From Alphaproteobacteria bacterium (GTDB taxonomy: Bacteria; Pseudomonadota; Alphaproteobacteria; Sphingomonadales; Emcibacteraceae): a stretch of 64,000 bases of DNA. This document shows positions 22,615 through 43,354 of the stretch, in pieces (position 1 is the stretch's first letter; each line of letters begins with the position of its first letter). Both the position numbers and the translations under genes were made by a program. The stretch spans positions 124,001 to 188,000 of the forward strand of contig JAUIDN010000003.1 in NCBI GenBank assembly GCA_030428615.1, read 5' to 3'. The notes under the pieces were generated by a model, which was not told where the DNA came from, did no database searches, and saw only the letters and a list, made by a program, of their open reading frames with translations.

Positions 22615-23618
22615 TTGATGCCCTCCCGGATTATGTAACTGCTAAAAACATTTTCACCGTCCTGGCTGCTGTCGCCCTGAACAACGTCGAAACCTGCGGC
22701 AGATAAATTATTCTCAAATGATGTCGTCTGAGAAAAATTGACTGACGATATTACTAAGTTAAGCAACGGTACTTCGCTGGAATTTTCATAGCCAAGGCTA
22801 TAAAGCGCAACACCGGAAGTGTCATTCACCGCTTTAAAGAGCGCATTGGAGAACAATAAAAATTCTGGACCGCTACCACCACCCTGGCCATTGGACAAGG
22901 CTCTCATCTGCGCCTCAACATTTACAATGCGAGTTACTTGCGGATAGGATTTTTTGAATAATTCAACTGATGCATCAGCATACCTGTCTCGTTCGGTATT
23001 ATTTTCATTGATCATTATTCCCATATAGGCGAGCCACAATAAGAAAGACGCCCCCATCATCAGTACCAAACGTTTTGCCGCCTTCATGTAAAGTACGATA
23101 GGGGCACGCGGGCTATATTTACCTGTCGCGAGGCCTGCCCCTTCCGGCGGCTGTTCCAATTCATGACCCTGATCCACCGCTTGTTCAGAGATGATATGCT
23201 GCAAAATATTGTCAGGAACTGTGAATCCCGTACCGTTATCCCGGCGCACCATAATCCGCCCGCAATGGCGAACCTGCAACACGCCCGTTTCCGGCACATC
23301 CAGTAAAGCATAGTCAGGCCAGATGGCCTTTAGTATTTTTTCGTCCTGTGCCGCCAGATTAACGGCTTCAATCATCCATTTGCGGTCACACACTGCAATA
23401 AGCGCTTCGCCAGTTTTCTTTTTTTCCATGATTGAAATATGCGCATCTTGGCTACCACCGGCCAGATAATCGGACAATATGCCGGGTAAAATCTTTTCAA
23501 GCTTGGAAGCCGGCAAATCCGGAAGCGGGATACTAAAAGTGCTGACAACTTCGCCGGGTAGAATGGCTATTGCCTCACCGGTTATTTGACCATCAATGAT
23601 TCTAATCGGTACCGACAT
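22611..23618 (-). CDS. gspL: Type II secretion system protein L
   Basis: Links the GspE ATPase to the inner-membrane platform. The 335-residue product has a cytoplasmic actin-like domain (1-185; LPGEVVSTFSIPLPDLPASK, KILPGILSDYLAG), one membrane helix (about 200-220) and a periplasmic ferredoxin-like domain. The cytoplasmic part is somewhat short compared with 380-400-residue homologues. Three nt separate it from gspK; it overlaps gspM. Confidence 0.85.
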   Translation of the reverse strand: MSVPIRIIDGQITGEAIAILPGEVVSTFSIPLPDLPASKLEKILPGILSDYLAGGSQDAHISIMEKKKTGEALIAVCDRKWMIEAVNLAAQDEKILKAIWPDYALLDVPETGVLQVRHCGRIMVRRDNGTGFTVPDNILQHIISEQAVDQGHELEQPPEGAGLATGKYSPRAPIVLYMKAAKRLVLMMGASFLLWLAYMGIMINENNTERDRYADASVELFKKSYPQVTRIVNVEAQMRALSNGQGGGSGPEFLLFSNALFKAVNDTSGVALYSLGYENSSEVPLLNLVISSVNFSQTTSFENNLSAAGFDVVQGDSSQDGENVFSSYIIREGIN

Positions 23619-23621
23619 CAG

Positions 23622-24602
23622 CTACACCCCCAACTTTCTGTCAACAAGCGCATATGTGCCATCACCATTCAGTAATATCAGGCTTTCCAAATGGATTTTG
23701 GCATCGGCAAACGCCACATCGACGAAAATTTTGTAACGCTTGGGACTGGTGACGAATTGTTTTCGAATATTTTGGCTTATATTCTGGTCCTTGAGATAAG
23801 CGTGATTCCAAAATCTGGACACATGGTCAAAACCATCGCTTGGCCGGTCCTCAATCATCGTCATTATGTTTTCTATTGAAACCGGCCTCCCTAATAGCGA
23901 ATGAATTAATATCGCCTGATCGGGACGCACACTATTCAGGTTAACCACCGTTTCCATAGAAACAGGGTCAACGCAAGCGACTGACTTTAATGTTTCAATA
24001 AGATCGGGGGTGTAACCGGACACAAGACGCAGTTCATCAATATCGGATAATGGAAAATTAGCCGCGCGGTAAGGTACTTCAAGCTGAGAGTAACTGAAGC
24101 TTTCTGCACCGGCGGGCATGGGTCGATCATCCGTATCCTGCCAGTCAACGAGTGTTCCCGACAACGCTATCGCCGCCCGATTACCAATTCCCAGTCCTTC
24201 AAGAAGCCGTGTATATTGATCGTAACCGATCTGGTTAAGTTCGTACCCGCTGGCATTGTTGCGCGTCACCACCGAATTAAGGTTAAAACAATTCGAATAT
24301 TCAGCGATCCTGCCGCTTACCAGACCGCTTTCTATCGGAAAAGTTACTTTTCGCTCATCGATATCTTCATAGATGAGCGAAGCAAGTTCCATATTTTGTG
24401 ACAATTTCACTGCCTGATCAGCGCCGATTATCTCACCAGCGAGTGCATATTGCACCGCTTGATGCTGCTGTAGCTTCATCGTCGTGCTTTTCGTATAAAA
24501 CCCAAGCAGATCAAAAGCCGCCACCATAGCCGCGCTCATCACGGAAACAAGCAGCAATACCGATAGCAGAGCGGCACCTTCATCTTTTCTAATGAAATTC
24601 AT
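23622..24602 (-). CDS. gspK: Type II secretion minor pseudopilin K
   Basis: Tip pseudopilin. The start was set at the ATG with GGGGAGGG upstream, overlapping gspJ by 14 nt; a longer reading frame lacks a proper leader. The prepilin site is KDEG/AALLSVLLLVSV after residue 9, without the Glu at position 5, as is normal for GspK. The large domain (326 residues overall) has the usual helix-hairpin region (SGYTPDLIETLKSVACV). Confidence 0.88.
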   Translation of the reverse strand: MNFIRKDEGAALLSVLLLVSVMSAAMVAAFDLLGFYTKSTTMKLQQHQAVQYALAGEIIGADQAVKLSQNMELASLIYEDIDERKVTFPIESGLVSGRIAEYSNCFNLNSVVTRNNASGYELNQIGYDQYTRLLEGLGIGNRAAIALSGTLVDWQDTDDRPMPAGAESFSYSQLEVPYRAANFPLSDIDELRLVSGYTPDLIETLKSVACVDPVSMETVVNLNSVRPDQAILIHSLLGRPVSIENIMTMIEDRPSDGFDHVSRFWNHAYLKDQNISQNIRKQFVTSPKRYKIFVDVAFADAKIHLESLILLNGDGTYALVDRKLGV

Positions 24603-25218
24603 TTGCCCTCCCCACCTGAAACAGGCTTCGATAGCGATAATCGTGTCTAAATTCACCATCCTTAACGATCCAGGAAATTTCAATCGCCCGCGGCAAATTC
24701 ATTTCCTGCTGATTTACAGAACCATTTATCCAGTTCTCCCGCCAGATATAACCATCATAAAATTTAAGCGAGACATCCTGTAGATTCCACAAAATGATAT
24801 AATCACGATAGGGGGTATCTTCGGTGATATCCGGGCGATCAAACGCCCGCCTGATCAATTTATTGTTATCAAACCGGTATTCAACGGTCTCAACCGGGGA
24901 CCTTGTCTCGTCAATATTTGACAGGTCACTGTTATTTCTTGTGAATCTGAGTAAAGTGCCCTCCCGATTTTCAGTATTTAGACCGGTCACAAAAGGTCGA
25001 TCAATCACCTGCTGCAAATCGCTACGCAAATATGACCTGGCATCATCAATCATATCAAGGTGGTTTATTTTGCCGCTCATCATTTGATTGGCATCGGCGA
25101 AATTACTCATGATGCTAAGGGACGCAGCAGAAACCACAGATAAAATAAAAACTGCGACTAGGGTTTCAATCAAACTAAACCCGTCATCCCGTTTCAATAT
25201 TTCGGCTGCCTTATTCAT
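24589..25218 (-). CDS. gspJ: Type II secretion minor pseudopilin J
   Basis: Tip-complex pseudopilin of 209 residues. Prepilin cleavage site DDG/FSLIETLVAVFILS after residue 13 with Glu at +5, then a beta-rich globular domain. It overlaps gspI by 4 nt and gspK by 14 nt. Confidence 0.9.
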   Translation of the reverse strand: MNKAAEILKRDDGFSLIETLVAVFILSVVSAASLSIMSNFADANQMMSGKINHLDMIDDARSYLRSDLQQVIDRPFVTGLNTENREGTLLRFTRNNSDLSNIDETRSPVETVEYRFDNNKLIRRAFDRPDITEDTPYRDYIILWNLQDVSLKFYDGYIWRENWINGSVNQQEMNLPRAIEISWIVKDGEFRHDYRYRSLFQVGRANEFH

Positions 25219-25589
25219 GATGTCTTTCTAAATCCGGTGATTTCATAAAGTGGGTTTCGGTTTCCCTGTTTTGTTACACTGATTGAAATACTGGCAATTG
25301 GCTGCTGATTTAAATAGCCGACGGTCGCCTGCCAATTAAAATCCATACCGGCCTGCTGCTCATTTCCCGATGTAATGCCTGGATTTGGTGCTTTTTCAGA
25401 AATGGTAAGTTCGGTTAGCACATTTTCTGCGACGATCTGTGCCAGTGCCCGTTCGTTCAATCTGACTGTTGATGTCAATGCCGTGGTTTGCGTGGCAATC
25501 ATCGGAATAATCGCCAGCGATAATATTGCCATTGCAACCAGCAGTTCGAGCAACGAGAAACCATCTTCTGAAAGGACGGGCCGGATCAT
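25215..25589 (-). CDS. gspI: Type II secretion minor pseudopilin I
   Basis: Tip-complex pseudopilin of 124 residues. Cleavage site SEDG/FSLLELLVAMAILSLAI after residue 10 with Glu at +5. The genes on either side are gspG and gspJ; no gspH lies between gspG and gspI. Confidence 0.9.
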   Translation of the reverse strand: MIRPVLSEDGFSLLELLVAMAILSLAIIPMIATQTTALTSTVRLNERALAQIVAENVLTELTISEKAPNPGITSGNEQQAGMDFNWQATVGYLNQQPIASISISVTKQGNRNPLYEITGFRKTS

Positions 25590-25592
25590 AAA

Positions 25593-26057
25593 CTATCCCT
25601 CGCTCCAATTGCCAATATCAAGCTCAAGTCCTTCACCCCCTAAACGACCGTCAGCACCAAATGAAAAAACATCAAACGCACCATGCTCGCCCGGGATCAA
25701 ATATTGATAATCCTGCCCCCAGGGATCTTTCGGCAGTGATTTGATATACCCTTCCCGCCGAAAATTATTTCCTTCCGGTGCAACAGCAAGAGATTCTATT
25801 CCCTGCTCCATTGTCGGGTATTTCATCTGATCCATCCGGTACATTTCAACGGCCTGTGAAATGACACGTATATCCGCTTTTGCTTTTTCAACCATTGCCC
25901 TGTCCTGATTGGGCAATACATTTATGACGACAACCGTAGTCAGGAGGCCCATAATGACAATCACAACCATCAATTCAATGAGTGAAAAGCCGTCCTCTCC
26001 TTCGAGAAGCTTTTTACCACTGTTCCTATTTTCAAATATCTTTTTCAATATATCCAT
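25593..26057 (-). CDS. gspG: Type II secretion major pseudopilin G
   Basis: Main pseudopilus subunit of 154 residues. A long 23-residue leader precedes EDG/FSLIELMVVIVIMG with Glu at +5. The C-terminal domain shows KYPTMEQGIESL, LPKDPWGQDYQYLIPGEHG and FSFGADGRLGGEG, the calcium-site region typical of GspG. Confidence 0.95.
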   Translation of the reverse strand: MDILKKIFENRNSGKKLLEGEDGFSLIELMVVIVIMGLLTTVVVINVLPNQDRAMVEKAKADIRVISQAVEMYRMDQMKYPTMEQGIESLAVAPEGNNFRREGYIKSLPKDPWGQDYQYLIPGEHGAFDVFSFGADGRLGGEGLELDIGNWSEG

Positions 26058-26074: not shown

Positions 26075-27298
26075 CTACATTAAAACCAGACTGTTTAAGC
26101 GCATAATCGGAAGCATGATCGACATCACAATGATACCAACCATTAACCCCATAATGATGACAATCATCGGCTCTAACAGGCTAAGTGCTTTTTGCGTAAA
26201 TCCGTCAAATTCGCTTTCAAGATAATCGGCAACTTTCAACAGCAAATAAGAAAGTCTGCCACTTTTCTCCCCCATCGAGCACATATAAACAAGCAACGAA
26301 GAAAAAACGCCGGTTTGTTTCATTGCGGTTGAGAGGGCATGACCATCCCTCACGTTCAAATAAACTTTATCAATCGCGTCGCGGATGACTTCGTTTGATA
26401 CTGTTTCTTTCGCCGCATGAATACTTTCAAGCACAGGACCACCACCTTCAATCAATGTCCCCATGGTTCTGGCGAACCTTGCGCTTGAAACCGAAAGAAC
26501 AAGCCTGCCGATAATCGGAATTTTCAAAAATAAACCATGCATCCATAACCGAAATGGCTTTTGTTTACCCGCGACCTTGACAGCGCCAATCAGCAGTACA
26601 ATAAAAATCACCAATGAAAATCCGTAGCTTATCAAAAATTCCGAAGTCCCCATGACAAACCTTGTCAACGCGGGAAGGTCAGCACCAATATCTTCGAATT
26701 GTGCCACAACTTTTGGAACCACAAATGTCATCAGAATAATAAGCACAGCCATCGCCACAATGCTTAGCACAATCGGATACACCATCGCCGTTGTGACTTT
26801 GTTTTTCACGTCTGCGCTTTTTTCGCTGTAATCAGCGATCCTCTCCATGATCCCCCCCAAATCACCGGATGCTTCACCGGCTTTAACCATTGACCGGTAT
26901 AAAGCAGGGAAACTGCGGGCTTCCGATTGCATGGCCGTGGAAAGTCTGGCCCCTTCGGAGACTTGCGATCTGACGCGGGTAAGGACATTTTTTACAATCG
27001 GCTTTTCGTTCTGAGAGGCCAATACGCTAAGCGCTTCTTCAATCGGTGTCCCCGCACTGAACATTGTTGCCATCTGGCGAGTGATTAAAGTCAAATCCTT
27101 TGAGCTGATTGAATTGTGATGAAAAAAAGTAAAATTACCCAACCGGAATCTGGTTTTATCACTGCCGATTTCAATCACAACCGGAAATAATGCGTTTGCC
27201 CGTAACCGGTTCTGCGCATCCCGTTTACTATCCGCTGCGATAACGCCTTTTTTTGTATTTCCCGCTGCATCAAGCGCTTCATAATCATAGGCTGGCAT
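26075..27298 (-). CDS. gspF: Type II secretion inner-membrane platform protein F
   Basis: Polytopic platform protein of 407 residues with two GspF domains (TRQMATMFSAGTPIEEAL and FARTMGTLIEGGGPVLESI) and three membrane helices (about 170-195, 220-245, 375-400). Starts inside the end of gspE (14-nt overlap). Confidence 0.95.
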   Translation of the reverse strand: MPAYDYEALDAAGNTKKGVIAADSKRDAQNRLRANALFPVVIEIGSDKTRFRLGNFTFFHHNSISSKDLTLITRQMATMFSAGTPIEEALSVLASQNEKPIVKNVLTRVRSQVSEGARLSTAMQSEARSFPALYRSMVKAGEASGDLGGIMERIADYSEKSADVKNKVTTAMVYPIVLSIVAMAVLIILMTFVVPKVVAQFEDIGADLPALTRFVMGTSEFLISYGFSLVIFIVLLIGAVKVAGKQKPFRLWMHGLFLKIPIIGRLVLSVSSARFARTMGTLIEGGGPVLESIHAAKETVSNEVIRDAIDKVYLNVRDGHALSTAMKQTGVFSSLLVYMCSMGEKSGRLSYLLLKVADYLESEFDGFTQKALSLLEPMIVIIMGLMVGIIVMSIMLPIMRLNSLVLM

Positions 27299-28814
27299 CG
27301 CTGTAATCCCTTAATTTGGAAACGCGCATAATTTCTTCCACAGTCGTTGTACCGCTCAAAATAAGTTCGCGGCCATTATCCGCGAGGGTTGCGTGATCTT
27401 TAAACGCAACCTCATTTATTTCCTGCTCGCTTGCACCGTTTTGAATCATTTCCCGGATTTCATCGGTTACAGTAACAAGTTCATAAATTGCAGTGCGCCC
27501 GCGATAGCCCGTATTCTGACAATCAACACAACCAACGGGTTTACACGCCATTTTCGCATTTTCCACATCCACATTCATCTGAGTTAAAAATGACGGTGTC
27601 GGTTCAATTTCGATCTTGCAGTTACTACAGAGTTTGCGAACCAGCCGCTGTGCCAAAATTGCTTTTAATGATGATGCCAGCAGGTATCTTTCTATACCCA
27701 TATCCACCAAGCGTGTAACGGCCGAAACCGCACTATTTGTGTGGACCGTCGATAAGACCAGATGACCGGTGAGGCTTGCCTGAACTGCCATTTCTGCGGT
27801 TTCCCTATCGCGGATTTCACCCACCATAACAACATCCGGATCCTGCCTCAAAATTGATCTGAGCCCGTTGGAAAACGTCATTCCCACTTTTGAATTTACC
27901 TGCGTTTGGCTGATGCCCGGCAGCGCATATTCAACCGGGTCTTCGACCGTCATGATGTTGCGGGTCTGATCATTTAAAAGGGATAACCCGGCATATAATG
28001 TGGTTGTTTTACCCGATCCGGTTGGACCCGTGACCAGTATAATGCCATTTGGCTCTGAAAGGGCATTTTGAAACCTTTTTAAGGTGTTCGGTTCAAGACC
28101 GAGATCCGCGAGTTCCAATTTGGCACTTTCGGTATCAAGTAAGCGCATCACCACCCGCTCCCCATAACGGATAGGTAACGTGGACACACGAACGTCATAA
28201 GCCTTGCCGCCCAATGTAAGTGATAGCCTTCCGTCCTGTGGAACCCTTTTTTCCGCAATATCAAGCCGGGCCATTACCTTAATACGGGATACAAGATATG
28301 GAGCAAGCTTCGGTGAAAGGGATGCCAGTTCGGTGAGGATGCCATCAATCCTCAATCGCGCCTTAACGCAATCCTCAAATGGTTCCAAATGAATATCCGA
28401 TGCGCCGGAACGAACAGATTCGCCAAGAAGCGAATTTAATAATCTTATGACTGGCGCATCGTCATCTCCGCCAAGCAGATCCGCAGATTTTTCGACCCCT
28501 TCCAGAATGCTGTCCAGATCTTCATCCTTTTTATCGGCCATCGACATGTCGATATCATCCTGAAGATTTCTGTTGGAATAGATGGTAGATAAAAGGTCAT
28601 TATATTCTTCTTCCGAAAAATTCTTGATGTCTTCGATGGAGCCAAAAACCCTGAGCACTTCGGGTATCATATCGCGATTTGCGTCCGGGCCCATGCAAAG
28701 GGTATACCCATTGTCATCCTCCCCAATCAGGATACTGTTGGTTTTCGCAAAACTGTATGGCAGCAAATGCGGGTCGCGATAATTATATACGCTGTTTTTT
28801 TCCTGTTTCCCCAT
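27285..28814 (-). CDS. gspE: Type II secretion ATPase E
   Basis: Cytoplasmic AAA-type motor for pseudopilus assembly. The 509-residue product has an N-terminal domain binding GspL, Walker A GPTGSGKTTT (about 263-272), an Asp box, Walker B (DPDVVMVGEIRD) and His box (GHLVLSTVHTN). A zinc module CSNC...CVDC is intact. A GTG 9 nt upstream overlapping the gspD stop is an alternative start. Confidence 0.95.
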   Translation of the reverse strand: MGKQEKNSVYNYRDPHLLPYSFAKTNSILIGEDDNGYTLCMGPDANRDMIPEVLRVFGSIEDIKNFSEEEYNDLLSTIYSNRNLQDDIDMSMADKKDEDLDSILEGVEKSADLLGGDDDAPVIRLLNSLLGESVRSGASDIHLEPFEDCVKARLRIDGILTELASLSPKLAPYLVSRIKVMARLDIAEKRVPQDGRLSLTLGGKAYDVRVSTLPIRYGERVVMRLLDTESAKLELADLGLEPNTLKRFQNALSEPNGIILVTGPTGSGKTTTLYAGLSLLNDQTRNIMTVEDPVEYALPGISQTQVNSKVGMTFSNGLRSILRQDPDVVMVGEIRDRETAEMAVQASLTGHLVLSTVHTNSAVSAVTRLVDMGIERYLLASSLKAILAQRLVRKLCSNCKIEIEPTPSFLTQMNVDVENAKMACKPVGCVDCQNTGYRGRTAIYELVTVTDEIREMIQNGASEQEINEVAFKDHATLADNGRELILSGTTTVEEIMRVSKLRDYSDASL

Positions 28815-28819
28815 GATTG

Positions 28820-30754
28820 TCACTCGTTTGTTATTGGTTTTGTCGTAACGACATTGTTCATGATGTCATCCACTGATAATTCTGATCCTGAAAGGATTTG
28901 ACGCTGCCGCATATAATCAAATTTCCGGTTGGTCACCCGCGCCATTTCATTCTTGTTCCTTACTATCGTCGGACGTAAAAAAATCATCAGATTAGTATTT
29001 TCCCGTGTCTTTCCTTCGGAACGAAAAGCGCGCCCCAGAAATGGGATATCGCCAAGCAAGGGCACCTTATCGACACTGATCCGTTCATTCTGTTCGATAA
29101 GCCCCCCAAGGACCACAACTTCGCCATCCCCAACACGCACAGTCGTTTGAATTTCCCGTTTCTTGGTCACCAGTTCTGTCGACAGCGAACTCACTGGCCC
29201 GGATATGGAAGAGACTTCCTGTCGGATATCCAACCTTATTTCATTGCCATCATTTATTTGCGGTTTGATCTCAAGCTGGATACCGACATTTTTGCGTTCA
29301 ATTGTCCTAAATGGGTTGCTGTTGGCACTCCCGAGTACTTCGCCCGTGGTGATGGGGATTTCCTGACCCGATAGGAAAGTAGCGGATTCGTTATCAAGCG
29401 CCATCACCGAAGGTGTCGATAGAATATTGCTGTCTGTATCACTCGCCAGCGCATTAAGGATTACCCCAAACACACCACCATTAGATGTGCGCCCCGCCGC
29501 ACCGACGGAGAAACCATCCAACCCAAGGAAGCTGTCCACCGCCGCCGCTTTTAAAATATCGGAAGCGCTGGTACCTGATGATCCTTCACCATCATCAACG
29601 ACTATTGCACCGGTTGCCGCCAGAATGTTTGGCGCGGAATTAGAATAATTGGCCACCGTGAAAGGGATATTGCTGCTATCGCCACCTGCCAGAATATATT
29701 GAAGGCCCAATTGCTTGGACGCGTTTTCCGACACTTCAACCACGATCGCTTCGACGAGCACCTGATCCTGCGGTACGTCGAGCTGTGTAATAATTTCCGC
29801 CAGCCGCTGTTGTATTTCCGGGCTGGCATTGATCACCAGTGAATTTGTGCCTGCGTGTTCGGCGATCATGATCTCATTATTTCCGTTTCGGGTACCGCCT
29901 TCACCCTGTTCATATTCAATCGCGTCAATCAATTGTTGTAAAACAGGAAGCATTTTGTCTGTTTTTGCATATTTAAGACGCACCATGCGCATATCGCCAC
30001 GGTTGGCGTTGTTCCGGTCAATATCGGCCAATATCGGCATATACTGATCGACAACTTCGGGCATCCCTTTTAAAATAAGAGAATTACTCCCCTTCACAAC
30101 GATGGTTTGCAGCAAACTGGCCGAAGCACCGTCGAAACCGGATTGTACGGTTAACTGATCCGCGACCTCGGCCATTTCAGTTGGCGATGTGTGCAACAGA
30201 TTAAGTGTTCTGATGACTGTTTGGTCCACATCAAGAGACGCTATAATTTGTGAAATACGGATCATGTTATCAGCGTGGTCTGTAACAACGACCATGGGCA
30301 AGCCGCTTCTGGCAAAACTGCTGCCACTTCTTGCCACGTAAGGTTTGATCGCCGCTGAAATTGTCATTGGGTCCGTATATTTTATGGCAAAAACGCGCGT
30401 AACCAGCGCATCGCCGGTGGCATTTTTATTGACCGGGCCACCATCACCCAAGGCAAGGTCGCTTTTGGTTATCTTGTATGCACCGCTTGATGTCGGCACC
30501 ACTGACATACCATTTACTTTAAGAACCGATAGCAATGTTTCAAACAGGAGATCACCGGAAATCGGTTCTGTAGAAATCAAATTTACTTTGCCGGTCACCT
30601 GCGGATCTATGATAAATGTTTTCCGCGTTTCTATGGCGACATCTTCTATGAATGACCTGAGTTCAGCATCACGGTAATTCAGTGTCACTCCGTCCTGCTG
30701 TGCAAATGAAGGCGCGGCGAACAAAAACATAAATATGAGGGTTAAAATTTTCAA
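28820..30754 (-). CDS. gspD: Type II secretion secretin D
   Basis: Outer-membrane channel of 644 residues. Signal peptide (MKILTLIFMFLFAAPSFAQ), N0 domain, three N1-like repeats, then the secretin core with the inserted serine/glycine-rich loop and VPLLGDIPFLGRAF. Translation starts at TTG, only 2 nt after gspC, with AGGA upstream. The C terminus after the secretin core is short, so any S domain for a pilotin is small. Confidence 0.95.
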   Translation of the reverse strand: MKILTLIFMFLFAAPSFAQQDGVTLNYRDAELRSFIEDVAIETRKTFIIDPQVTGKVNLISTEPISGDLLFETLLSVLKVNGMSVVPTSSGAYKITKSDLALGDGGPVNKNATGDALVTRVFAIKYTDPMTISAAIKPYVARSGSSFARSGLPMVVVTDHADNMIRISQIIASLDVDQTVIRTLNLLHTSPTEMAEVADQLTVQSGFDGASASLLQTIVVKGSNSLILKGMPEVVDQYMPILADIDRNNANRGDMRMVRLKYAKTDKMLPVLQQLIDAIEYEQGEGGTRNGNNEIMIAEHAGTNSLVINASPEIQQRLAEIITQLDVPQDQVLVEAIVVEVSENASKQLGLQYILAGGDSSNIPFTVANYSNSAPNILAATGAIVVDDGEGSSGTSASDILKAAAVDSFLGLDGFSVGAAGRTSNGGVFGVILNALASDTDSNILSTPSVMALDNESATFLSGQEIPITTGEVLGSANSNPFRTIERKNVGIQLEIKPQINDGNEIRLDIRQEVSSISGPVSSLSTELVTKKREIQTTVRVGDGEVVVLGGLIEQNERISVDKVPLLGDIPFLGRAFRSEGKTRENTNLMIFLRPTIVRNKNEMARVTNRKFDYMRQRQILSGSELSVDDIMNNVVTTKPITNE

Positions 30755-30756
30755 AA

Positions 30757-31629
30757 TTAAAGTCCTAATGATGATTGAGAAAGCGTGAGTGTCAGTGGCT
30801 CCCCACGTCTTTCAAATTGGATATCCAGGCTGTCTGCGGTCGCTTCTTCGGAAATTTCTTTTACTCTTTCCCACGAATGAAGCCTGTTTCCATTCACGAC
30901 TGAAATGATATCGCCCACTTCTATACCGACGAGCGATAAAAGTGACTCCTCAGCGTTTATTCCAACCGTAAACCCGGTTATTTCCTTACCTTCACGAAAC
31001 GGCGACAAATCCATTGCATTAACAAATTCAGCAATTTTTTTCTGCCTTGTGATGATACTTTTATTGGCCTGGGCTTTAGTGGGGTTTTCCTGCATCTTTT
31101 TAAAAACGGAGCCCGCTTCTTCTTTTTCCAGATAAATCGTTTCAAGTCTGCCATTGCGTCTGAATTCTATTCGATTGGCGAAAATTGCCGTCAGCGTCGC
31201 ACCACTTGCGATCTCATCTCCGACGCGGGCCAGTCGCTGGACGCTTCCCTGCGATTTAAGAATCGCGGTGCCGTTTCCGTTTCCCTTGGCACGAAGACCA
31301 AATATTTTTATATCGAGCGTGCTTTCCGGAACGTTATTCACAACGGTCGAGATATCTGAATTAGCCGCTCCATAAAACGCATCTACCGTCTTTAAATAGG
31401 TGAATTGTTCTTTTTTCCCCTGTGGCATGTTAGAAGTAGAGATAGGCGGAATATCCATCAGTAGGTCATCCCCTTCATCAATGATCATATAATTTAAAAA
31501 TATCTCAGAGCAAAAAACCGCCAACAAAATAACCATGATAACTTCAAAAACCGAAACCGATAGACGGTAGTAAAACGGCAACTGTGCCGTTCTTATATCA
31601 CTTTCATTTTTTTCCGTTTTTGCCATCAT
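30757..31629 (-). CDS. gspC: Type II secretion inner-membrane protein C
   Basis: Connects platform and secretin. The 290-residue product has one N-terminal membrane helix (about 28-50), the HR domain (about 110-180; FGLRAKGNGNGTAILKSQG) and a C-terminal PDZ domain (about 230-285; VGIEVGDIISVVNGNRL). It is the first gene of the gspCDEFGIJKLMN operon; the promoter should lie in 31630-31740. Confidence 0.88.
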   Translation of the reverse strand: MMAKTEKNESDIRTAQLPFYYRLSVSVFEVIMVILLAVFCSEIFLNYMIIDEGDDLLMDIPPISTSNMPQGKKEQFTYLKTVDAFYGAANSDISTVVNNVPESTLDIKIFGLRAKGNGNGTAILKSQGSVQRLARVGDEIASGATLTAIFANRIEFRRNGRLETIYLEKEEAGSVFKKMQENPTKAQANKSIITRQKKIAEFVNAMDLSPFREGKEITGFTVGINAEESLLSLVGIEVGDIISVVNGNRLHSWERVKEISEEATADSLDIQFERRGEPLTLTLSQSSLGL

Positions 31630-31797: not shown

Positions 31798-34368
31798 TTA
31801 AAACGTATAGTTAAATCCGAGAGAGAATGTTCTGCCAATTTCGAATGATTCAGCGATCTCGCTTCCCTGTGTCCTGAGCGCTTTCTCATTAAGCAGATTC
31901 TGTGCCTTGAATGTCATGGTAATCGGGTTATCACCGAACAGCTCAAAATCGCGGCTATATAGGAAATTAACCTGAACAGGAATGTCTTCAATCAGATCCG
32001 GACGATTTGTAGTCCCGAGACGATAAATACGGTCGCCCTGATAGTTGACAATGATATTGAGCTTTTCACCTATATCAAGATTTTCAAATCCGACCTGGAG
32101 ATTAGCCAGATAATCAGACTGTCCCTGAAGACGCCCAACCAGGTTGGTTACCTGATCGAAGTTTTCACGACTACGGATAACTTCTGAATCGATATATGAG
32201 GCGTTTGCCTTAACGAAAAATTCGCGGGCGCCGATTGTTGCGAGAATTTTCTCCACTTCAATCTCACCCCCTTTGAGCTTCGCGGATTCAGCGTTGGCAA
32301 CCGTATCGGCCTCACCGTCACCGCGAGCAAAAATTGATTGCTCTATCGGGTTTTCAATTTCTTTATAGAAAGCACCGATTGTGAGACTTTGTCCGGTGTC
32401 AAAGTACCATTCAAATCTCGCGTCCAAACTGCGAATATCTGCGGGTATCAGATTTTCGTTGCCGCGTTCCGTACGACCATCTTCACGGACGAAGAACACG
32501 GGCGCGAGTTCACGGCTATCGGGTCGGTTTACCGTTTCGGAATAAGCAAGCCTGATTTGCATATTTTCAATAAATTCCCACGTTACCGTCGCGGACGGCA
32601 ACCATTTTTGAAGATCCTGATTGATCCGTATATCTTCAAACGTTGTGCGGTTTGTTGATTGCACGGTTTGTAAGCTATCTTCATAGCGCATGCCGGCCGA
32701 GACACGGACTTGATCCGTTACCTGAGCGTCAACCTGCGCAAAAAACTGCTTGTTTTCAAAGTCAGCGGTAAAAGCGCTTGAAGGATCAAAAAATTCATCA
32801 AGAAAAATACCATTTGGGTCGATATTCACTGACCCAAAAATAACTTCGGGAACAAACGTTCTAAGATCATCATTTGTTACGTTCGAAAGATTAAATCCAT
32901 ATTTCTTATAATCGGAAACACGGTTTTTTTCGTTGTAACTGGCGCCAAACTTAAAATCCAGCGCGGCGCTATCAATATAGAAAGGCTGTTTGACATCAAA
33001 ACCGATATCTTTTGACGTATCCTCAAGATTACCATATTCAATCCTGTTACTGTCATTACGTCTCAGCATTTCAAACTGATCAGCGTTATTGTCATACACA
33101 TAGATATAAGATCTGCGATTAGGCACATCCCTTTTCGCTTTGGTTGTATTGGCATACCAGAAGAGTTCAGTTTCATCATCGTCAAAAAGGTAGAAGGCAT
33201 GTTCACCGTCCAAAGTATGCGACCAAACCTGGCGTTCCACCCAATCAAGCCGTGTGAAGTTCGCTAAGTCCTCAGAGTTCGTGCTTCCCTGTTGTATTTC
33301 CACCTGTTTCTGTGTTGATCGAAGTAACAAAGACGTGTATTTGATTGCATGTTCGGGATTTATCTGCCAACCGACTGACGCAAAAGTGTTTAGATCAATA
33401 TCCCATGTCGTAACATCATAACCACATTCCGAACCGGGAACGCCGTTTGCTTCGCAGGCACGAGGGCTAAAATCTCGGTCAGCTTCCAAGCCGGATTCTG
33501 TTGCACTTGACGCAGAATAGGAACTGCGCTGTCCAAATTTATTTCTGAATTTACTGCCGTAATCAACAGCAAAAATTACACCCAATTCACCTTCATCGCC
33601 GACGTCAAAGTTGGTGCCGCCAGCCGCATTAAAGTCAAAATCGGGCGCATTGCTTTGAAAATCAATTGACCACACATTTGGGAAAGCCTCTCCCGCTTGT
33701 TCAAGCTGCTCAGCAGACAGTCCTTCAAGGGTCGGGTTTTGAGCGATAATATCCGGCATATCACGGGTGCCATCGTCAAACCCGAAAACATCCGTATCAC
33801 TTCCATAATAAGTTAATCCATCTTTGAATGTCGAAGCGGAATTGTATCCTGTCGCAAAACCGATTTCAAAAAAGCTTTCATCCGGAACAACTTTAGTGCG
33901 GATATCAATAACCCCGCCACCAAATGCACCCGGAAACTCGGCAGAATATGTTTTTTGAATAAGAACATTTCCCACAAGCGATGTCGGAAAAATATCAAGC
34001 GGCACAGCCCGTTTCAGCGGGTCCGGAGAAGGAAGCTCAATACCGTTGAGCAAAGTTGAGGTGTAGCGCTCATTCAAACCACGAATGACCACATACTTAC
34101 CCGAAACATCGGGGGAGATTCCGGGAAGCCGGGTCAACGCAACTGCAATATCACTGTCACCTGCCAAACTGAAATCACTTGAGCTTACAACATTTGATAT
34201 TTCTGATGTCGCTCGTTTTTCATCAGGAATGTATCGGCCAACAGTCACGATCGTATCGATCTGGTCTTGATCGGCCTGTTGTGCTTCCTGAGAATAGGAA
34301 ACCATAGGACTGGTCAATATACTGGAAGCGAGTAACGTGCTTTTTAAAGTTCTTTGGAACATTTTCAT
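31798..34368 (-). CDS. TonB-dependent receptor next to the T2SS and surface lipoprotein
   Basis: Outer-membrane receptor of 856 residues. Start chosen at the ATG with GGTGAC 5 nt upstream; two earlier in-frame starts exist. Signal peptide MKMFQRTLKSTLLASS..., TonB box region IDTIVTVG, plug with GKYVVIRGLNERYTSTLLNG and FPGAFGGGVIDIRT, barrel ending FSLGFNYTF. It is the second gene after the duplicated lipoprotein gene, with a hairpin between. A partnership between receptor and lipoprotein (SusC/SusD-like logic) is an inference from position; the lipoprotein is not a SusD fold. Confidence 0.9.
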   Translation of the reverse strand: MKMFQRTLKSTLLASSILTSPMVSYSQEAQQADQDQIDTIVTVGRYIPDEKRATSEISNVVSSSDFSLAGDSDIAVALTRLPGISPDVSGKYVVIRGLNERYTSTLLNGIELPSPDPLKRAVPLDIFPTSLVGNVLIQKTYSAEFPGAFGGGVIDIRTKVVPDESFFEIGFATGYNSASTFKDGLTYYGSDTDVFGFDDGTRDMPDIIAQNPTLEGLSAEQLEQAGEAFPNVWSIDFQSNAPDFDFNAAGGTNFDVGDEGELGVIFAVDYGSKFRNKFGQRSSYSASSATESGLEADRDFSPRACEANGVPGSECGYDVTTWDIDLNTFASVGWQINPEHAIKYTSLLLRSTQKQVEIQQGSTNSEDLANFTRLDWVERQVWSHTLDGEHAFYLFDDDETELFWYANTTKAKRDVPNRRSYIYVYDNNADQFEMLRRNDSNRIEYGNLEDTSKDIGFDVKQPFYIDSAALDFKFGASYNEKNRVSDYKKYGFNLSNVTNDDLRTFVPEVIFGSVNIDPNGIFLDEFFDPSSAFTADFENKQFFAQVDAQVTDQVRVSAGMRYEDSLQTVQSTNRTTFEDIRINQDLQKWLPSATVTWEFIENMQIRLAYSETVNRPDSRELAPVFFVREDGRTERGNENLIPADIRSLDARFEWYFDTGQSLTIGAFYKEIENPIEQSIFARGDGEADTVANAESAKLKGGEIEVEKILATIGAREFFVKANASYIDSEVIRSRENFDQVTNLVGRLQGQSDYLANLQVGFENLDIGEKLNIIVNYQGDRIYRLGTTNRPDLIEDIPVQVNFLYSRDFELFGDNPITMTFKAQNLLNEKALRTQGSEIAESFEIGRTFSLGFNYTF

Positions 34369-34402
34369 AATTGTCACCATTATATTAATAAATAAACAAA
34401 GT

Positions 34403-34432
34403 GCAGTGACGGCGAAGTTTTGCCATCACTGC
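34403..34432 (-). promoter_or_regulatory. Hairpin between the lipoprotein and receptor genes
   Basis: GCAGTGA and TCACTGC form a 7-bp stem extended by a mismatch and three more pairs, in the 80-nt gap between the two genes. There is no T run next to it on the transcribed strand, so it may be a partial terminator or an mRNA-processing element that sets different levels for the two products. Confidence 0.5.
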
Positions 34433-34448
34433 AACAGTTATCGTTTCC

Positions 34449-37178
34449 TTAATCGTTGACCCACACGGTCCAACCTTCGAGCCAGTTATTTGCTTCGGCA
34501 TCAACAGCTCCAATATGAGTTGTTGTGTCAAACCAGGCATCCAATGTTTGTGGGTTTGTAAATGTCACCCCATTCTCGGTTGCACCGTTAATGAAAGCGT
34601 GAGAACCACCTGCCGGCGCCACCAACGTGCTTGCCGCCGTGCTATTATTTGGCTGTCCAAGGAACCATGCGGACAAGTCACCATCTTCCGCATCAGCGGC
34701 AAAGTTGGTTGTGCAGGACAGCAATGCAGAGGTTATTGTAATACCGTCCGCCGTATCACGACGGGCATATGTTGCTGCCTGATCCAAATCAAGACACTGG
34801 TCAAGGAAGTTTGCCGTAACAATATTGACGATCCTGGCACCTGTACCCTCCCGAAGAAGCATGCCAATGTCACCGCGTGTCGCCCCACCAACAAGTGTTA
34901 TGTTGGAAAGGAGCGGTTGAGCGTACGGTGTCGCATCATTATCGTCACCGTTATTATCGGCTTCAATTCCTTGGTCTGTCGCAGACTGATTATCGTTTTG
35001 GACAACAACCGCATGTTGGATTGCGCCGCGCCAGCCCTTGGTCCAGTCGATACTGTCATCATCGGCACCGGTGATCACCAAATGTTTCACGCGAACTGTA
35101 CCACCGAAGAATTCAACACCATCGTCGGCACCATTATGGACCTGAAGATAGTCAACCTCAGTACCGCGTCCGACACCTTCAAACGCAACACCATTCAGTT
35201 CATCATCATCGGTGATCGGGTTACCGGCATATTTTACGACCGTGTAGAACATTTGACCACTATCGTCGTCGTCGTCATTACCGCCGTAGTTACCGCTATC
35301 CCCTTCGCCGGCAGCTTCACAGATACCAACACCACAACCGTTTATCGTCGCACGACCATTGATAACCAATCCACCCCAAAGTGAGGTATCTGTATCAAGA
35401 TTACGTGTTTCATCATTGGTTGCTGTCATTATAACAGGCGCATCTGCTCTACCATTTGAGAAGATTTGTGAACCACGCGAAATCACCAGGAACGAAAGCG
35501 GATCTTCGCCAGCAATTGTTACACCGGCATCTATGATCAGACTGCCCGGCGTCGCACCACCAAGAGGAGCTCCCGCGTCAGGGCCGAGGTCTTCACCGAT
35601 GACCACTTTTCCACGGAGGAAATATTCAAGACCCGCCGCAAGGCGCATTGTACCGGTATAAACACCTTGTAGAATACAGCCGCCTGCACCAGTTGCTGTT
35701 GTTCCCGCGGGACAGACAGGCGCCGGGTTAATGGCATATGACCATCCCAATGTCCAGTTGTCGTTCACATCACCACTTTTAACCGCACCGATATAATCGG
35801 TAGTGTCAAACCAAGTATCAATAGCGTTCACATCCGTTACAGTAACGCCGTTTTCAGCGACACCATTAATGAAACCTGAAAGTGTGTCTGGTGTTGCAAC
35901 ATTATTGGCCTGACCAAGGAACCATGCAGACAAGTCACCGTCGTCAGCATCAGCAACAAACGGCTGATCACATCCCAGCAATGTCGACTGAATGGTGATA
36001 CCATCCGGACCATCACGTCGGGCATATGTTGACGCGTGGTCAATATCAAGACATCCATCAAGGAAGTTTGTCACAACCGCATTATATATTTTAGCGCCGG
36101 TACCCTCACGAAGAAGCATACCAATGTCGCCACGTGTTTCACCGCCAATAAGCGTGATGTTTGAAATACTCGGCTGTGCATATGGTGTGACATCATTATC
36201 ATCACCATTATTATCGGCTTCAATACCCTGGTCTGTTGCAGACTGGTTATCATTCTGTAAAATCAAAACATGCTGAGCACGGCCACGCCAACCTTTCGTC
36301 CAGTCAAGACTGTCATCATCCGCACCAGAAACAATCAAATGTTTGATATCGGCCGTACCACCAAAAAATTCAACGCCGTCGTCAGCGCCGTTATGAACAT
36401 GAATATAGTCAAGTGTTGTACCGCGCCCAACACCTTCAAACGCGATGCCGTTAAGTTCATCGTCATCCGTAATCGGGTTACCGGCATAGCGAACCTGAAC
36501 ATAACGCATTACACCGGAATTATCATTGTCATCCAGTCCGCCGTAATTACCACTATCACCTTCGCCGACGGCTTCGCAGATGCCGGAAGCACAGCCGTTA
36601 ATAGTAGCAAGGCCGTTTATGACAATGCCGCCCCATTCTGATGTGAAACTTTCTGAAAGGGCTTGCGCGGAAGCATTAAAGCCACGTTCAATGTCAGCCG
36701 CGGAGGTAAAGACAATTGGTTGGCCGACATTTCCGTCGGCGTTTATTTTTGAGCCGCGGGCGATAACCAAAAATGAATTCTCATTCAATCCCGCAATTGT
36801 TGTCCCAGCAGGAACATTGAGCTGCACACGCGTTCCGCCGGTTCCGTCAGCAGCTGTTTCCTGACCGATCGTCACCTTACCGTTCAACAAATAAGTGTTT
36901 GCAGCACTTAATGTCATGTCCTGGGTGACAACACCGGAAATTTCACAGGCCTGCCCTGTTCCAAGCGTCACGAGCGTGCTGCCAGCTGTACATTGTACAA
37001 CGGTACCGCCACCGCCACCACCTGCGCCGCCGCCAGCACCGCCAGTGCCGGGGTTATCACCCGTTTCACCCTTTGAAGCGAGCTCGGTATTTTTATCTGA
37101 GCAGCTCGTGAAAGCTGATAGTGAAATTGCTGCCATAAGAATTAAGAACAACTTCTTGATTTGATTGAGATTTGTCAT
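34449..37178 (-). CDS. Large surface lipoprotein of two homologous halves (beta-helix-like)
   Basis: A 909-residue lipoprotein: signal with lipobox FTSC (C26), a Gly-rich linker (about 40-58), then two similar units (about 60-485 and 488-905). Each contains WGGIVINGLATINGC or a close copy, ITDDDELNG followed by AFEGVGRGT, VHNGADDGVEFFGGT, ADDDSLDWTKGWRG and GIEADNNGDDND. The pattern of short hydrophobic strands with Gly, Asp and Asn turns suggests a right-handed parallel beta-helix and possibly calcium binding. Related proteins occur in many marine bacteria without a defined function. The T2SS operon and prepilin peptidase on either side make it a good candidate T2SS cargo. Confidence 0.8.
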   Translation of the reverse strand: MTNLNQIKKLFLILMAAISLSAFTSCSDKNTELASKGETGDNPGTGGAGGGAGGGGGGTVVQCTAGSTLVTLGTGQACEISGVVTQDMTLSAANTYLLNGKVTIGQETAADGTGGTRVQLNVPAGTTIAGLNENSFLVIARGSKINADGNVGQPIVFTSAADIERGFNASAQALSESFTSEWGGIVINGLATINGCASGICEAVGEGDSGNYGGLDDNDNSGVMRYVQVRYAGNPITDDDELNGIAFEGVGRGTTLDYIHVHNGADDGVEFFGGTADIKHLIVSGADDDSLDWTKGWRGRAQHVLILQNDNQSATDQGIEADNNGDDNDVTPYAQPSISNITLIGGETRGDIGMLLREGTGAKIYNAVVTNFLDGCLDIDHASTYARRDGPDGITIQSTLLGCDQPFVADADDGDLSAWFLGQANNVATPDTLSGFINGVAENGVTVTDVNAIDTWFDTTDYIGAVKSGDVNDNWTLGWSYAINPAPVCPAGTTATGAGGCILQGVYTGTMRLAAGLEYFLRGKVVIGEDLGPDAGAPLGGATPGSLIIDAGVTIAGEDPLSFLVISRGSQIFSNGRADAPVIMTATNDETRNLDTDTSLWGGLVINGRATINGCGVGICEAAGEGDSGNYGGNDDDDDSGQMFYTVVKYAGNPITDDDELNGVAFEGVGRGTEVDYLQVHNGADDGVEFFGGTVRVKHLVITGADDDSIDWTKGWRGAIQHAVVVQNDNQSATDQGIEADNNGDDNDATPYAQPLLSNITLVGGATRGDIGMLLREGTGARIVNIVTANFLDQCLDLDQAATYARRDTADGITITSALLSCTTNFAADAEDGDLSAWFLGQPNNSTAASTLVAPAGGSHAFINGATENGVTFTNPQTLDAWFDTTTHIGAVDAEANNWLEGWTVWVND

Positions 37179-37503
37179 TTCGACCCCATTTTTTCCAATT
37201 AATCTGAACCATAATGTTCAGGTACAAGTTTCATTTGGACCGCAGTAAGTCCGTTAAGCGACTCTTTCATAGGGAGGGTTTGTGATGTTTTTGTTTCAGA
37301 GGTGTGATAAAAATATGAAAAACAAAATCATAAATTCTCTACATTTATTTTTGCTTTATATTCAGGTGATTAAGCATCTTTTTAGAAAAAATATGATTCA
37401 GGGTCGCAGGAAAATTACAGAAATATGGATGTTAATTTTTGATTATTTAGACCACCTCATTCAAAAAGTTAACAAATTGTAAAGATGGTTGGAGTGGGTG
37501 ATT
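37179..37503. other. Promoter region of the surface lipoprotein gene
   Basis: A 325-nt AT-rich gap. CTGAAC and GTTCAG form an inverted repeat at 37204-37221, just upstream of the lipoprotein gene. A short frame at 37282-37482 has no supporting features and is not called. Confidence 0.45.
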
Positions 37504-38037
37504 CTATATCAGCAGGTCGACGATCTGATCACTAAAAAGCCAGACAATCCAGATCGACAAAGCCAGGTGAGGACCAAAGGGTAATTTCGTGTTTTTTTCT
37601 GGAAATGAATGCAAGCCATTCATCATCATTGTCCACATGAGGGCGAGAAAAGATGAGATAAATAATATGACAGGCAGAAGGTGAGGAAGTACCCAGACGG
37701 CCCCTGCCGCGAACAATTTAATATCGCCAAACCCCATACCGTGCTTGCCGCGATATCGATGATAAAGAAACGAAATAAGACTTAAAACGGATAATGCAAT
37801 CAAGACTGATATAATGGGAAGCCAAAATTCTTGTCCAATCTGGATATTGTACCCTATCCCGACAAGTAAAATTGCAACGTTAAGGATATTGGGGAGGCGG
37901 TATGACCGTATATCGAAATAACTGATCGCAGAAAGAAGCGCCCATAAAACCACCGCATATGATAATGGCCTGTCCGACAGAAACATCAGCGAAAATGATG
38001 TAACTGCCAAAAAGACCATTATTGATTTATGTATCAC
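37504..38037 (-). CDS. Prepilin peptidase (A24 family), GspO-like
   Basis: Cleaves the leader of the T2SS pseudopilins in the inner membrane. The 177-residue product has about six helices and both catalytic aspartates, D42 (SYFDIRSYRLPN) and D105 in GMGFGDIKLF. It lacks the N-terminal methyltransferase domain of PilD, as in the short CpaA/TadV-type enzymes. GTG start; an ATG lies six codons in. Its position near gsp genes suggests it serves GspG-K. Confidence 0.9.
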   Translation of the reverse strand: MIHKSIMVFLAVTSFSLMFLSDRPLSYAVVLWALLSAISYFDIRSYRLPNILNVAILLVGIGYNIQIGQEFWLPIISVLIALSVLSLISFLYHRYRGKHGMGFGDIKLFAAGAVWVLPHLLPVILFISSFLALMWTMMMNGLHSFPEKNTKLPFGPHLALSIWIVWLFSDQIVDLLI

Positions 38038-38123
38038 CGACCTGATCCCATCTTCATCTGTCCGTTGGCAAGCGCTTTAAAACGCTTATATCAGACCGGC
38101 ATACTGTATGATTTTATCGTCTC

Positions 38124-38492
38124 TTACAAGGATTCAAGACGTTTTAATCCTTCCTTAGCGATATATTTAACTTTTCTTGCTTTACCGGACAATGTCATTG
38201 CAAAACTATTATCGCGCCCGTCCAGAATTTCCTGATAGAGGGCCACTGCTTTTTCGGTCCGTCCTGTGGCACTATAAAGGAACGCCAAATTCACTTTTGC
38301 AAAAATTTGGTCTTCAGGACTGAATTCGGTGTTGACCAATTCGGCTTCGGCGGCTGACCAGTCACGCGCAGCTATCTTCCCAGATGCAACAGAGCTTTCC
38401 TGCAGAAGAACAAGCGAACTCAGATCTTCGGCATTTGCTGCACTTGCATATAGTCCAACAGACATGATTAAACCTAGTGCTATTTTCTTCAT
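38124..38492 (-). CDS. Small exported TPR-like protein
   Basis: A 122-residue protein with signal peptide (MKKIALGLIMSVGLYASAANA) and helix pairs including FAKVNLAFLYSATGRTEKAV, a tetratricopeptide-like unit. A strong AAGGAG ribosome site precedes the ATG. It lies 86 nt before the prepilin peptidase gene in the same direction, so it may belong to the secretion locus. Function unknown. Confidence 0.75.
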   Translation of the reverse strand: MKKIALGLIMSVGLYASAANAEDLSSLVLLQESSVASGKIAARDWSAAEAELVNTEFSPEDQIFAKVNLAFLYSATGRTEKAVALYQEILDGRDNSFAMTLSGKARKVKYIAKEGLKRLESL

Positions 38493-38763: not shown

Positions 38764-39315
38764 ATGGACAAAAGATTCGTTTTCATGTTGGTGGTTTTTG
38801 CCGCATTAATTTTTAAGACATCAGCAACATATGCGGCCAACGGTAGCATTAATGTCGCTAGCCCTGTCAGCTATAATTATGCCCATCTTGACCCATCCGG
38901 GTCCCTCGGTGATGATTCATTTGACATTGCCGTTCAGTTTGTGAAATCTGCGCAATTATATAAGAGCCTGTCCCTTCTTCTGCTGGATTCTGTAAAGACA
39001 GACCAGGTCGTTGAAAAAGCCATCTCAGAATTCGGGTTTCCAACCGTAAAAAACTCCGTTGTTTCCAACATCAAATATACGACGGACCAATACAGGACCA
39101 AGTGGGTGTCATTACTGGCTGGTATATATAGCGAACAATTTGACCACAACATGTTAAAATCCATTCTGGATGACGGCGAGAACTCGCCTTACTATACACA
39201 GTTCATTGTCCGGCAGAGCCAAATGAATACGAATACTCTATTATCAAACAGTGTTGTGTTCAGAGAAGCGCATGATGAATTAATTGCGTCACTAAGAAAG
39301 AATTTTTCTTCTTAA
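38764..39315 (+). CDS. Hypothetical exported protein
   Basis: Not recognised. The 183-residue product has a signal peptide (about 1-25, ending TYAA) and a helical mature part rich in Leu and Lys (QLYKSLSLLLLDSVKT, IRQSQMNTN-like C terminus). It is divergent from the TPR-like gene across a 271-nt AT-rich promoter gap. Nothing ties it firmly to the T2SS except position. Confidence 0.65.
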   Translation: MDKRFVFMLVVFAALIFKTSATYAANGSINVASPVSYNYAHLDPSGSLGDDSFDIAVQFVKSAQLYKSLSLLLLDSVKTDQVVEKAISEFGFPTVKNSVVSNIKYTTDQYRTKWVSLLAGIYSEQFDHNMLKSILDDGENSPYYTQFIVRQSQMNTNTLLSNSVVFREAHDELIASLRKNFSS

Positions 39316-42654: not shown

Positions 42655-42848
42655 TTATTGTCGATCGTAAATTTCTATTTCTCCGACTTGTCCCGGTTCG
42701 AAATAGCATTTAGCTGTATAAGGTAGCTCTACACCCAAGGCGTTCTTTGCATCGAAGTCCATTGTTATAACCACGTTGAAGGTGACAGGTGCTGTGTACA
42801 TAGAGGTGCCTAATAAAGTATGCATATCAACTTCACTTGGCAATATGG
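42655..42848 (-). pseudogene. 3' fragment of an unknown gene cut by an IS30 remnant
   Basis: About 60 coding-looking codons (MYTAPVTFNVVITMDFDAK ... VGEIEIYDRQ) end at a stop at 42655. The 5' part is lost at the junction with the transposase remnant near 42848. The family is not recognised. Confidence 0.5.
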
Positions 42849-43354
42849 CTTCGATCCGGGAACGCCCTGCTTCAGTGGAAGACCGTGCGGTACCCGGCCA
42901 CTGGGAAGGGGATCTGATTGCGGGCAGCAATAATACCTTCATAGCCACACTGGTGGAGCGACACACCCGTTATGTGATGCTGGCCAAGGTAAAAGGCAAA
43001 GACACAGAGACAGTGGTCACAGCACTCATTAAGCAATCGAAGAAACTACCCGCGGAACTCTACAAATCTCTGACCTGGGATAGAGGCAAGGAACTGGCTG
43101 ACCATAAACGCTTTAGTCTGGCGACAGATATTGATGTTTATTTTTGTGATCCTCACAGCCCCTGGCAGCGTGGCTCCAACGAAAACACCAATGGCCTGCT
43201 AAGACAATATTTTCCCAAGGGAACCGATTTATCAAAACATTCGCAGGCAAAGCTTAATGCAGTAGCGCGACAACTAAATGAACGACCAAGACAGACGCTG
43301 GACTTTGAAAGCCCGGCAGAGAGATTTGAAGCATGTGTTGCATCGACCAGTTGA
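42845..43354 (+). mobile_element. IS30-family transposase remnant, 5' truncated
   Basis: About 165 residues of the C-terminal catalytic part: SIRERPASVEDRAVPGHWEG, then the DDE residues in HWEGDLI, LTWDRGKEL and SPWQRGSNENTNG. The helix-turn-helix half and the left inverted repeat are missing; the reading frame continues upstream only into unrelated sequence. The element should be inactive. Confidence 0.88.

Follow-up and report, generated by a model that had tools for sequence, protein, structure and literature searches.

The window analysed here, a stretch of 64,000 nucleotides of alphaproteobacterial DNA, carries on its minus strand a lipoprotein with two copies of a predicted beta-helix domain, a TonB-dependent receptor (TBDR) and a type II secretion system (T2SS), arranged as has been published for Caulobacter crescentus. 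There, cc0170 (ElpS) and cc0171 (a TBDR) lie immediately upstream of gspC-N (Le Blastier 2010, PMC2996285). The kind of locus is thus already described, as ElpS/CC0171, and the window lipoprotein is an ordinary, domain-duplicated member of its family. What looks new is that the lipoprotein-TBDR pair is accompanied by different secretion machines in different bacteria. The locus is probably an ElpS/CC0171-type module for phosphate scavenging, in which the neighbouring secretion machine is exchangeable. The first-pass annotation of the window, made from the sequence alone, had located the lipoprotein, the TBDR, a prepilin peptidase and a TPR-like protein beside the gsp operon, and the reading frames and protein families bear this out. 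Its statement that no system of this composition had been described does not hold, as ElpS/CC0171 has the same gene order. The two genes of the pair are as follows.

34449-37178, minus strand: ElpS-type lipoprotein, 909 aa; two predicted beta-helix domains (residues 78-480 and 501-904), lipobox with Cys26, Gly-rich tether
31798-34380, minus strand: TBDR of the CC0171 type, 860 aa, by Pfam and NCBIfam; partner of the lipoprotein by conserved adjacency

The lipoprotein-receptor pair

The lipoprotein consists of two homologous halves, as had been described at the outset, with 61% identity over 418 aligned columns (E 4e-173). The Gly-rich tether and the Asp/Asn-rich sequence of that description are also present, the former as a stretch after Cys26 and the latter throughout the body of the protein. 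The signal ends in LSAFTS directly before Cys26, with an atypical phenylalanine at position -3. The gene is single-copy in the source genome. No family in Pfam (E ≤ 0.01) or NCBIfam (E ≤ 0.01; half 2 at E ≤ 0.1) matched the protein. A phmmer search against the PDB gave only weak matches (best E 0.032), with antibody fragments in the 60 rows listed, whose best stretches lay mostly over the Gly-rich part, and a profile search returned only two weak matches to GlmU. Since all of these matches are weak, no solved relative of the lipoprotein was found by sequence. In a tree of the domains, N- and C-terminal halves group within several lineages and two-domain forms occur in separate lineages, which indicates several duplications or homogenisation. 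A single origin of the two-domain form was considered, and the same grouping speaks against it.

An orthologue of ElpS was sought in 119 genomes of one family. The lipoprotein was found in 47 of them, and among five stretches that were fetched, one (locus L133) encodes a protein of 518 aa from a GTG start, with LAGC at residues 17-20, Asn38 and a mass of 50.05 kDa counted from Asn38. Its gene is followed by those of a TBDR and gspD-G, and a prepilin peptidase is encoded on the opposite strand. By the published features this is the ElpS orthologue, and it presumably corresponds to CC0170 itself. Its identity to the window lipoprotein is 35% over 433 residues for the first half (E 6e-63) and 32.5% over 424 residues for the second. 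The window TBDR is 30% identical to the receptor next to this orthologue over 872 aa (E 2e-101), and a search with another TBDR of the window (17325-20486) gave no match to this receptor (best E 0.34).

The TBDR gene lies 68 bp behind the lipoprotein gene and is separated from gspC by 168 bp. The protein matches the Plug (E 2e-9) and barrel (E 9e-26) families of Pfam, and no match was found in the PDB at E ≤ 0.001. Every one of the 38 alphaproteobacterial loci counted has a TBDR on the same strand and within 400 bp of the lipoprotein gene, as do 17 of 18 gammaproteobacterial loci. Outside the Proteobacteria, a TBDR adjoins the lipoprotein gene in nine of ten loci (the exception is L017); in L013, L026, L035 and L037, no TBDR was seen within the DNA stretch examined. 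The pair is a conserved unit in Proteobacteria, including genomes that have no T2SS, so that the pairing proposed in the first-pass annotation stands. In two of the 19 gammaproteobacterial loci (L070 and L081), a DUF3450 gene and ExbB-type genes follow the TBDR gene, and a TonB motor dedicated to the pair is possible there.

Secretion machines beside the pair

Eleven gsp genes, from gspC to gspN, follow the TBDR gene at 21.4-31.6 kb.

30757-31629, minus strand: GspC (PF11356)
28820-30754, minus strand: GspD secretin (TIGR02517, E 7e-146)
27285-28823, minus strand: GspE ATPase (TIGR02533, E 1e-192)
26075-27298, minus strand: GspF (TIGR02120, E 5e-139)
22132-26057, minus strand: GspG, I, J, K, L and M (Pfam)
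21368-22135, minus strand: GspN (PF01203, E 1.2e-9; 39 bits against a cut-off of 29.6)

All were assigned by Pfam or NCBIfam. There is no gspH between gspG and gspI, as gspG (25215-26057) is directly followed by gspI. The first-pass annotation took the T2SS to be the lipoprotein's route to the surface. This is a serious alternative to an exchangeable machine, although we hold it to be the less probable of the two, and it was examined through the distribution of GspD. In 147 genomes of the window's order, with "near" defined as within 15 kb, the lipoprotein was found in 82 and GspD in 73; 58 genomes combine the two, and in 15 GspD occurs alone (Fisher p 9e-9 for co-occurrence, with kinship ignored). 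GspD is near the lipoprotein in 45 of the 82 genomes, far away on the same contig in eight, on another contig in five and absent from 24. In a sample of the phylum, GspD was near the lipoprotein in 8 of 13 genomes from other alphaproteobacterial orders. In an even draw of the class, the lipoprotein occurred in six of 240 genomes and a GspD match in 55. The T2SS route is also favoured by the presence of GspN in the window, because GspN is required for T2SS surface lipoproteins in Acinetobacter (Roberts 2025, PMC12802150).

Several findings speak against this route. Outside the Alphaproteobacteria, GspD was near the lipoprotein in none of 21 genomes; this count and that of 8 in 13 relied on GspD matches no weaker than E 3.5e-76, without G737-G752, and none of the weaker matches, checked by eye, lies within 15 kb of a lipoprotein. 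Among the 24 genomes of the order that have the lipoprotein and no GspD, 23 also have no GspG, and these 23 are listed as 99-100% complete; the exception is G326, an assembly in 430 contigs. The loci of 20 of the 24 were read (G326, G363, G366 and G382 were left out), and every one has kept the lipobox and a same-strand TBDR within 400 bp. The residues after the cysteine in these proteins (e.g., GADEIVSPGTGGNITINN) are close to those of the ElpS orthologue (GSDDIASPGTGGNVTINN). The sorting motif of Acinetobacter, rich in Gly/Ser or Asn/Asp (>4) within P1'-P8' (PMC12802150), is not matched by the window's CSDKNTEL, a rule that belongs to Acinetobacter and may not hold in Alphaproteobacteria. 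Finally, cellular ElpS was degraded by proteinase K both in the wild type and in a gspC-N deletion, from which the authors concluded that its display is T2SS-independent and that its release, by cleavage before Asn38, is T2SS-dependent (PMC2996285). The control for intact cells in that test was cytoplasmic MreB (PMC2996285), so periplasmic leakage is possible and the test is not watertight.

Taken together, it is doubtful that T2SS export is the defining step of the system. The original proposal survives in part. The proximity of GspD in 45 of 82 genomes and the presence of GspN agree with a T2SS route and with conservation of the pair together with gsp genes, a conservation that ends outside the Alphaproteobacteria; the protease accessibility of ElpS in the deletion strain suggests that the surface can be reached without the T2SS, and in the 20 loci read from GspD-less genomes the pair exists apart from it. 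In the Alphaproteobacteria, a secretion machine seems to belong near the pair, and not necessarily a T2SS.

The conserved neighbours in the T2SS-less loci include genes for a lytic transglycosylase, VirB3- and VirB4-like proteins and an OmpR-type regulator. By tblastn, VirB4, VirB3 and the transglycosylase were each found in 19 of the 20 T2SS-less loci (the VirB-type operon is present in L043-L062 except L060) and in L015, a locus of Altericroceibacterium endophyticum in whose genome GspD was not found. None of the three was found in seven loci with a distant T2SS, in two sets of T2SS-adjacent loci (0/5 and 0/7) or in 19 gammaproteobacterial loci, and one of nine Caulobacteraceae-like loci (a working label) has them. 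That locus, L097, and L098 come from the GspD-less genomes G617 and G640, which belong to two other families. In the same 147 genomes of the order (matches of at least 38% identity, one coordinate per lipoprotein), 22 of the 24 that have no GspD (not G326 and G351) carry VirB4 near the lipoprotein, again within 15 kb, as does one of the 58 GspD-positive genomes (G267), which gives a Fisher p of 1e-16 with kinship ignored. All 22 genomes belong to a single family, f2, so that, together with G617 and G640, there may have been only three independent events. G370 and G328 have a close VirB4 type and no lipoprotein.

An operon of the order TPR-B1-B2-B3-B4-B6-B9-B10-B11 was found in L138, L139, L142, L144 and L015. 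The VirB-type operon also stands beside the pair in L097/L141, where L141 has B1 to B11 and no TPR match; in L098, only B1-B4 are inside the stretch, beyond the TBDR gene. L139 and L142 have no gene between B6 and B9, and B11 is followed by the polyphosphate kinase gene ppk rather than by VirD4; for VirB5, VirB7, VirB8 and VirD4, no homology search was made. The ppk gene is located after or near the VirB operon in L139, L142, L144 and L015, and ppx is near it in the first three. Outside the Proteobacteria, a third machine is indicated, the type IX secretion system (T9SS): its sorting domain, Por_Secre_tail, was found above the cut-off in six of eight relatives tested, and the other two (L014 and L020) have a lipobox and an adjoining TBDR. 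Among the open-licence PMC papers listed, none dealt with a VirB machine next to a pair of this kind. The available part of one report states that T2SS and type IV secretion systems (T4SS) are overrepresented in Qipengyuania, and nothing further (PMC9241875).

Predicted fold and acidic site

Half 2 was modelled with AlphaFold2 on the basis of 15 aligned rows, and the model is confident (pLDDT 86.2, pTM 0.90). VIA-align was run on the structures that Foldseek ranked highest. The top Z score was 22.8, against a phage tailspike, followed by about 22 against mannuronan epimerases and NosD, and 20-21 against lyases of families PL6 and PL9. Foldseek itself gave nothing at E ≤ 0.001 (best E 0.012), and the fold is therefore argued from the VIA-align scores and the regular strands of the model, by which half 2 is a parallel beta-helix. 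The suggestion of a capture protein other than SusD agrees with this prediction: the lipoprotein had no Pfam match at E ≤ 0.01, and the model is a beta-helix instead of a SusD fold.

Seven acidic positions, D200, D201, E204, D222, D223, D226 and E254 in the numbering of half 2 (the DDE/DDD/E set), would lie on successive coils of the helix, judging by their spacing. The whole set is kept in 117 of 127 aligned domain segments, both halves of the window protein included. Of the remaining ten, six are short and have no part of the site and four are gapped at the seventh position (L037, L038 and both domains of L100); substitutions were not seen. Such conservation also suits another explanation, in which the lipoprotein is mainly a metal-dependent beta-helix lyase, epimerase or hydrolase that acts on a phosphorylated or anionic glycan, with the TBDR importing the product. 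The structural neighbours are largely carbohydrate-active proteins (alginate epimerases, polysaccharide lyases and tailspikes), although NosD, which is not an enzyme, is among them too. However, a shared beta-helix fold shows no function, the missing Foldseek match at E ≤ 0.001 does not help an enzyme reading, and ElpS showed no phosphatase activity. A mainly enzymatic role therefore merits attention as a minority view, about as credible as the T2SS route.

It is quite improbable that the lipoprotein of T2SS-less genomes remains attached to the inner leaflet and acts on the periplasmic side of the TBDR, so that the family has no fixed topology: no exporter is proven in these genomes, and 8 of 18 gammaproteobacterial relatives have no lipobox (nine were detected by an automatic test and L077 by eye; the regular expression missed five lipoboxes visible by eye, in L063, L064, L077, L088 and L100), but T9SS sorting domains imply an extracellular protein and the N-termini of the T2SS-less proteins nearly match that of the ElpS orthologue.

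A probable link to phosphate

Upstream of the lipoprotein gene lies a candidate regulatory element.

37403-37431, minus strand: Pho-box-like triple 11-bp repeat (CATCCAT-N4-CTGTAAT-N4-CTGCGAC)

Repeats of this type were scored with what we take to be the Pho-box consensus. The scan required three repeats, replaced an earlier two-repeat scan and was controlled by random windows from the same locus and by shuffling. Against the random windows, a repeat at p ≤ 0.05 was found in 20 of 50 alphaproteobacterial and 13 of 18 gammaproteobacterial loci, and against shuffles in 28 of 50 and 17 of 18, respectively, the loci being related and not independent. In 47 of the 50 and 13 of the 18 loci, respectively, the best match faced the lipoprotein gene. 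PhoB-like regulators are encoded in 7 of 19 gammaproteobacterial loci, four of which are close relatives; in L081, a PhoB-type regulator, PhoR and a PstS-like binding protein stand beside the pair. ElpS is a surface lipoprotein induced by phosphate starvation (PMC2996285), and the PhoB regulon of Caulobacter includes the T2SS and various TBDRs (2024, PMC11208175). Phosphate scavenging by the pair is suggested both by these repeats and by the literature. No paper that combines a beta-helix protein, a TBDR and Pho control was found in the open-licence PMC literature.

On this basis, the lipoprotein would be synthesised when phosphate is limiting, receive its lipid anchor at Cys26 and be presented on the outer face. 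The acidic clefts of its two beta-helices may bind a phosphorus-containing polymer or ester and perhaps process it with a metal ion, after which the ligand would be handed to the TBDR for TonB-driven uptake. Such capture and transfer, the role assigned in the first-pass annotation, is plausible. The neighbouring machine, to judge by its position, may serve the extracellular arm by exporting or releasing the lipoprotein or partner hydrolases, and could be exchanged: a T2SS in the window, a VirB-type T4SS in T2SS-less relatives and a T9SS outside the Proteobacteria. The strictest form of this idea, that one capture pair works with interchangeable T2SS, VirB-type T4SS and T9SS and that the VirB machine is a phosphate-scavenging exporter of the lipoprotein or its partner enzymes, seems rather unlikely.

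Several observations weigh against a phosphate-scavenging module of pair and machine. The repeat in the window is modest, its score being reached by 1.9% of 320-bp tiles of the window, and 30 of 50 alphaproteobacterial loci have no such repeat at p ≤ 0.05. In Caulobacter, cc0171 was reported to be constitutive and not phosphate-induced, phosphatase activity was absent from ElpS after refolding or immunoprecipitation, and deletion of elpS left the phosphatase of the supernatant unchanged (PMC2996285). No ligand is known, and the available part of PMC12864828 holds nothing on a ligand of CCNA_00171. In 12 further loci of Flavobacteriales (L019, L021-L023, L028, L031-L034, L036, L038 and L039), a distance of 2.5-5 kb separates the lipoprotein gene from the closest TBDR.

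The analysis connects a widespread protein family, for which no Pfam or NCBIfam model matches the window protein, with a specific TBDR, and the literature and the Pho-box-like repeats connect it with phosphate scavenging. An older question also becomes testable, namely whether the capture protein is delivered by the secretion machines next to such pairs. If the exchange for VirB is functional, nutrient acquisition that is otherwise assigned to a T2SS or T9SS would be carried out by a T4SS that has no VirD4 next to it.

Other genes of the window

Two small genes lie upstream of the lipoprotein gene.

37504-38037, minus strand: short prepilin peptidase (A24), 177 aa (PF01478, E 4e-16)
38124-38492, minus strand: small exported TPR-like protein, 122 aa (weak TPR matches, below the Pfam cut-offs)

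The source genome encodes two A24 peptidases, the 177-residue enzyme and a second one whose gene is on contig C30, close to a different secretin. The short enzyme is therefore most likely GspO of the window's T2SS and stands outside the capture pair. Homologues of it were found in six of ten T2SS-adjacent loci and in none of the 20 T2SS-less loci. A second GspD-like secretin, above the TIGR02517 cut-off, is encoded at C25:52878-54569, so that a second T2SS-like system may exist.

The TPR-like protein has close homologues only in L005, L083 and L085. In 19 of the 20 T2SS-less loci, the lipoprotein gene is preceded by a gene for a small TPR protein, with homology to that of the window unproven (best E 0.035). 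Divergent from the TPR gene, 38764-39315 encodes an exported protein of 183 aa that has no Pfam match over the cut-off, and a Pho-box-like repeat in the intergenic region is oriented towards this reading frame. A small lipoprotein-like reading frame without a Pfam match (20859-21398) lies directly behind gspN, and 42776-43354 has an integrase core (rve) and is likely a transposon remnant. A Pfam scan of 28 window proteins gave no Slam/DUF560 match; the rest of the genome was not searched.

Comparison with known systems

SusCD and PusCD are likened to the window pair by analogy, as a surface lipoprotein and a TBDR that act together. SusD is helical, and the predicted beta-helix of the window lipoprotein is unlike it. 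PulA and InvL, surface lipoproteins that depend on a T2SS with GspN, share these two features with the window, whereas the window protein does not carry the Acinetobacter sorting motif and the available text mentions no TBDR partner (Roberts 2025, PMC12802150); this comparison was made without sequences.

The Flavobacterium lipoproteins FI, FII and FIII, from Bacteroidota, respond to low phosphate and are 31-36% identical to a Caulobacter lipoprotein inducible by low phosphate (Lidbury 2020, PMC8115612). FI and FII are encoded in clusters with TBDRs, the proteins were modelled as polygalacturonase-like, and one low-phosphate lipoprotein was the most abundant exoprotein (PMC8115612). Their likeness to the window protein was drawn from published figures and not from an alignment.

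The closest match is ElpS/CC0171/gspC-N, an arrangement also reported for Xanthomonas campestris, Sphingomonas alaskensis and Hyphomonas neptunium (PMC2996285). It shares with the window the order lipoprotein-TBDR-gspC, the lipobox, a nearby prepilin peptidase and, via the orthologue in L133, sequence homology. The two differ in that the domain is present twice in the window protein, which is 909 aa long (the orthologue has 518 aa), and that the prepilin peptidase gene is upstream of the lipoprotein gene in the window and beyond gspN in the Caulobacter locus.

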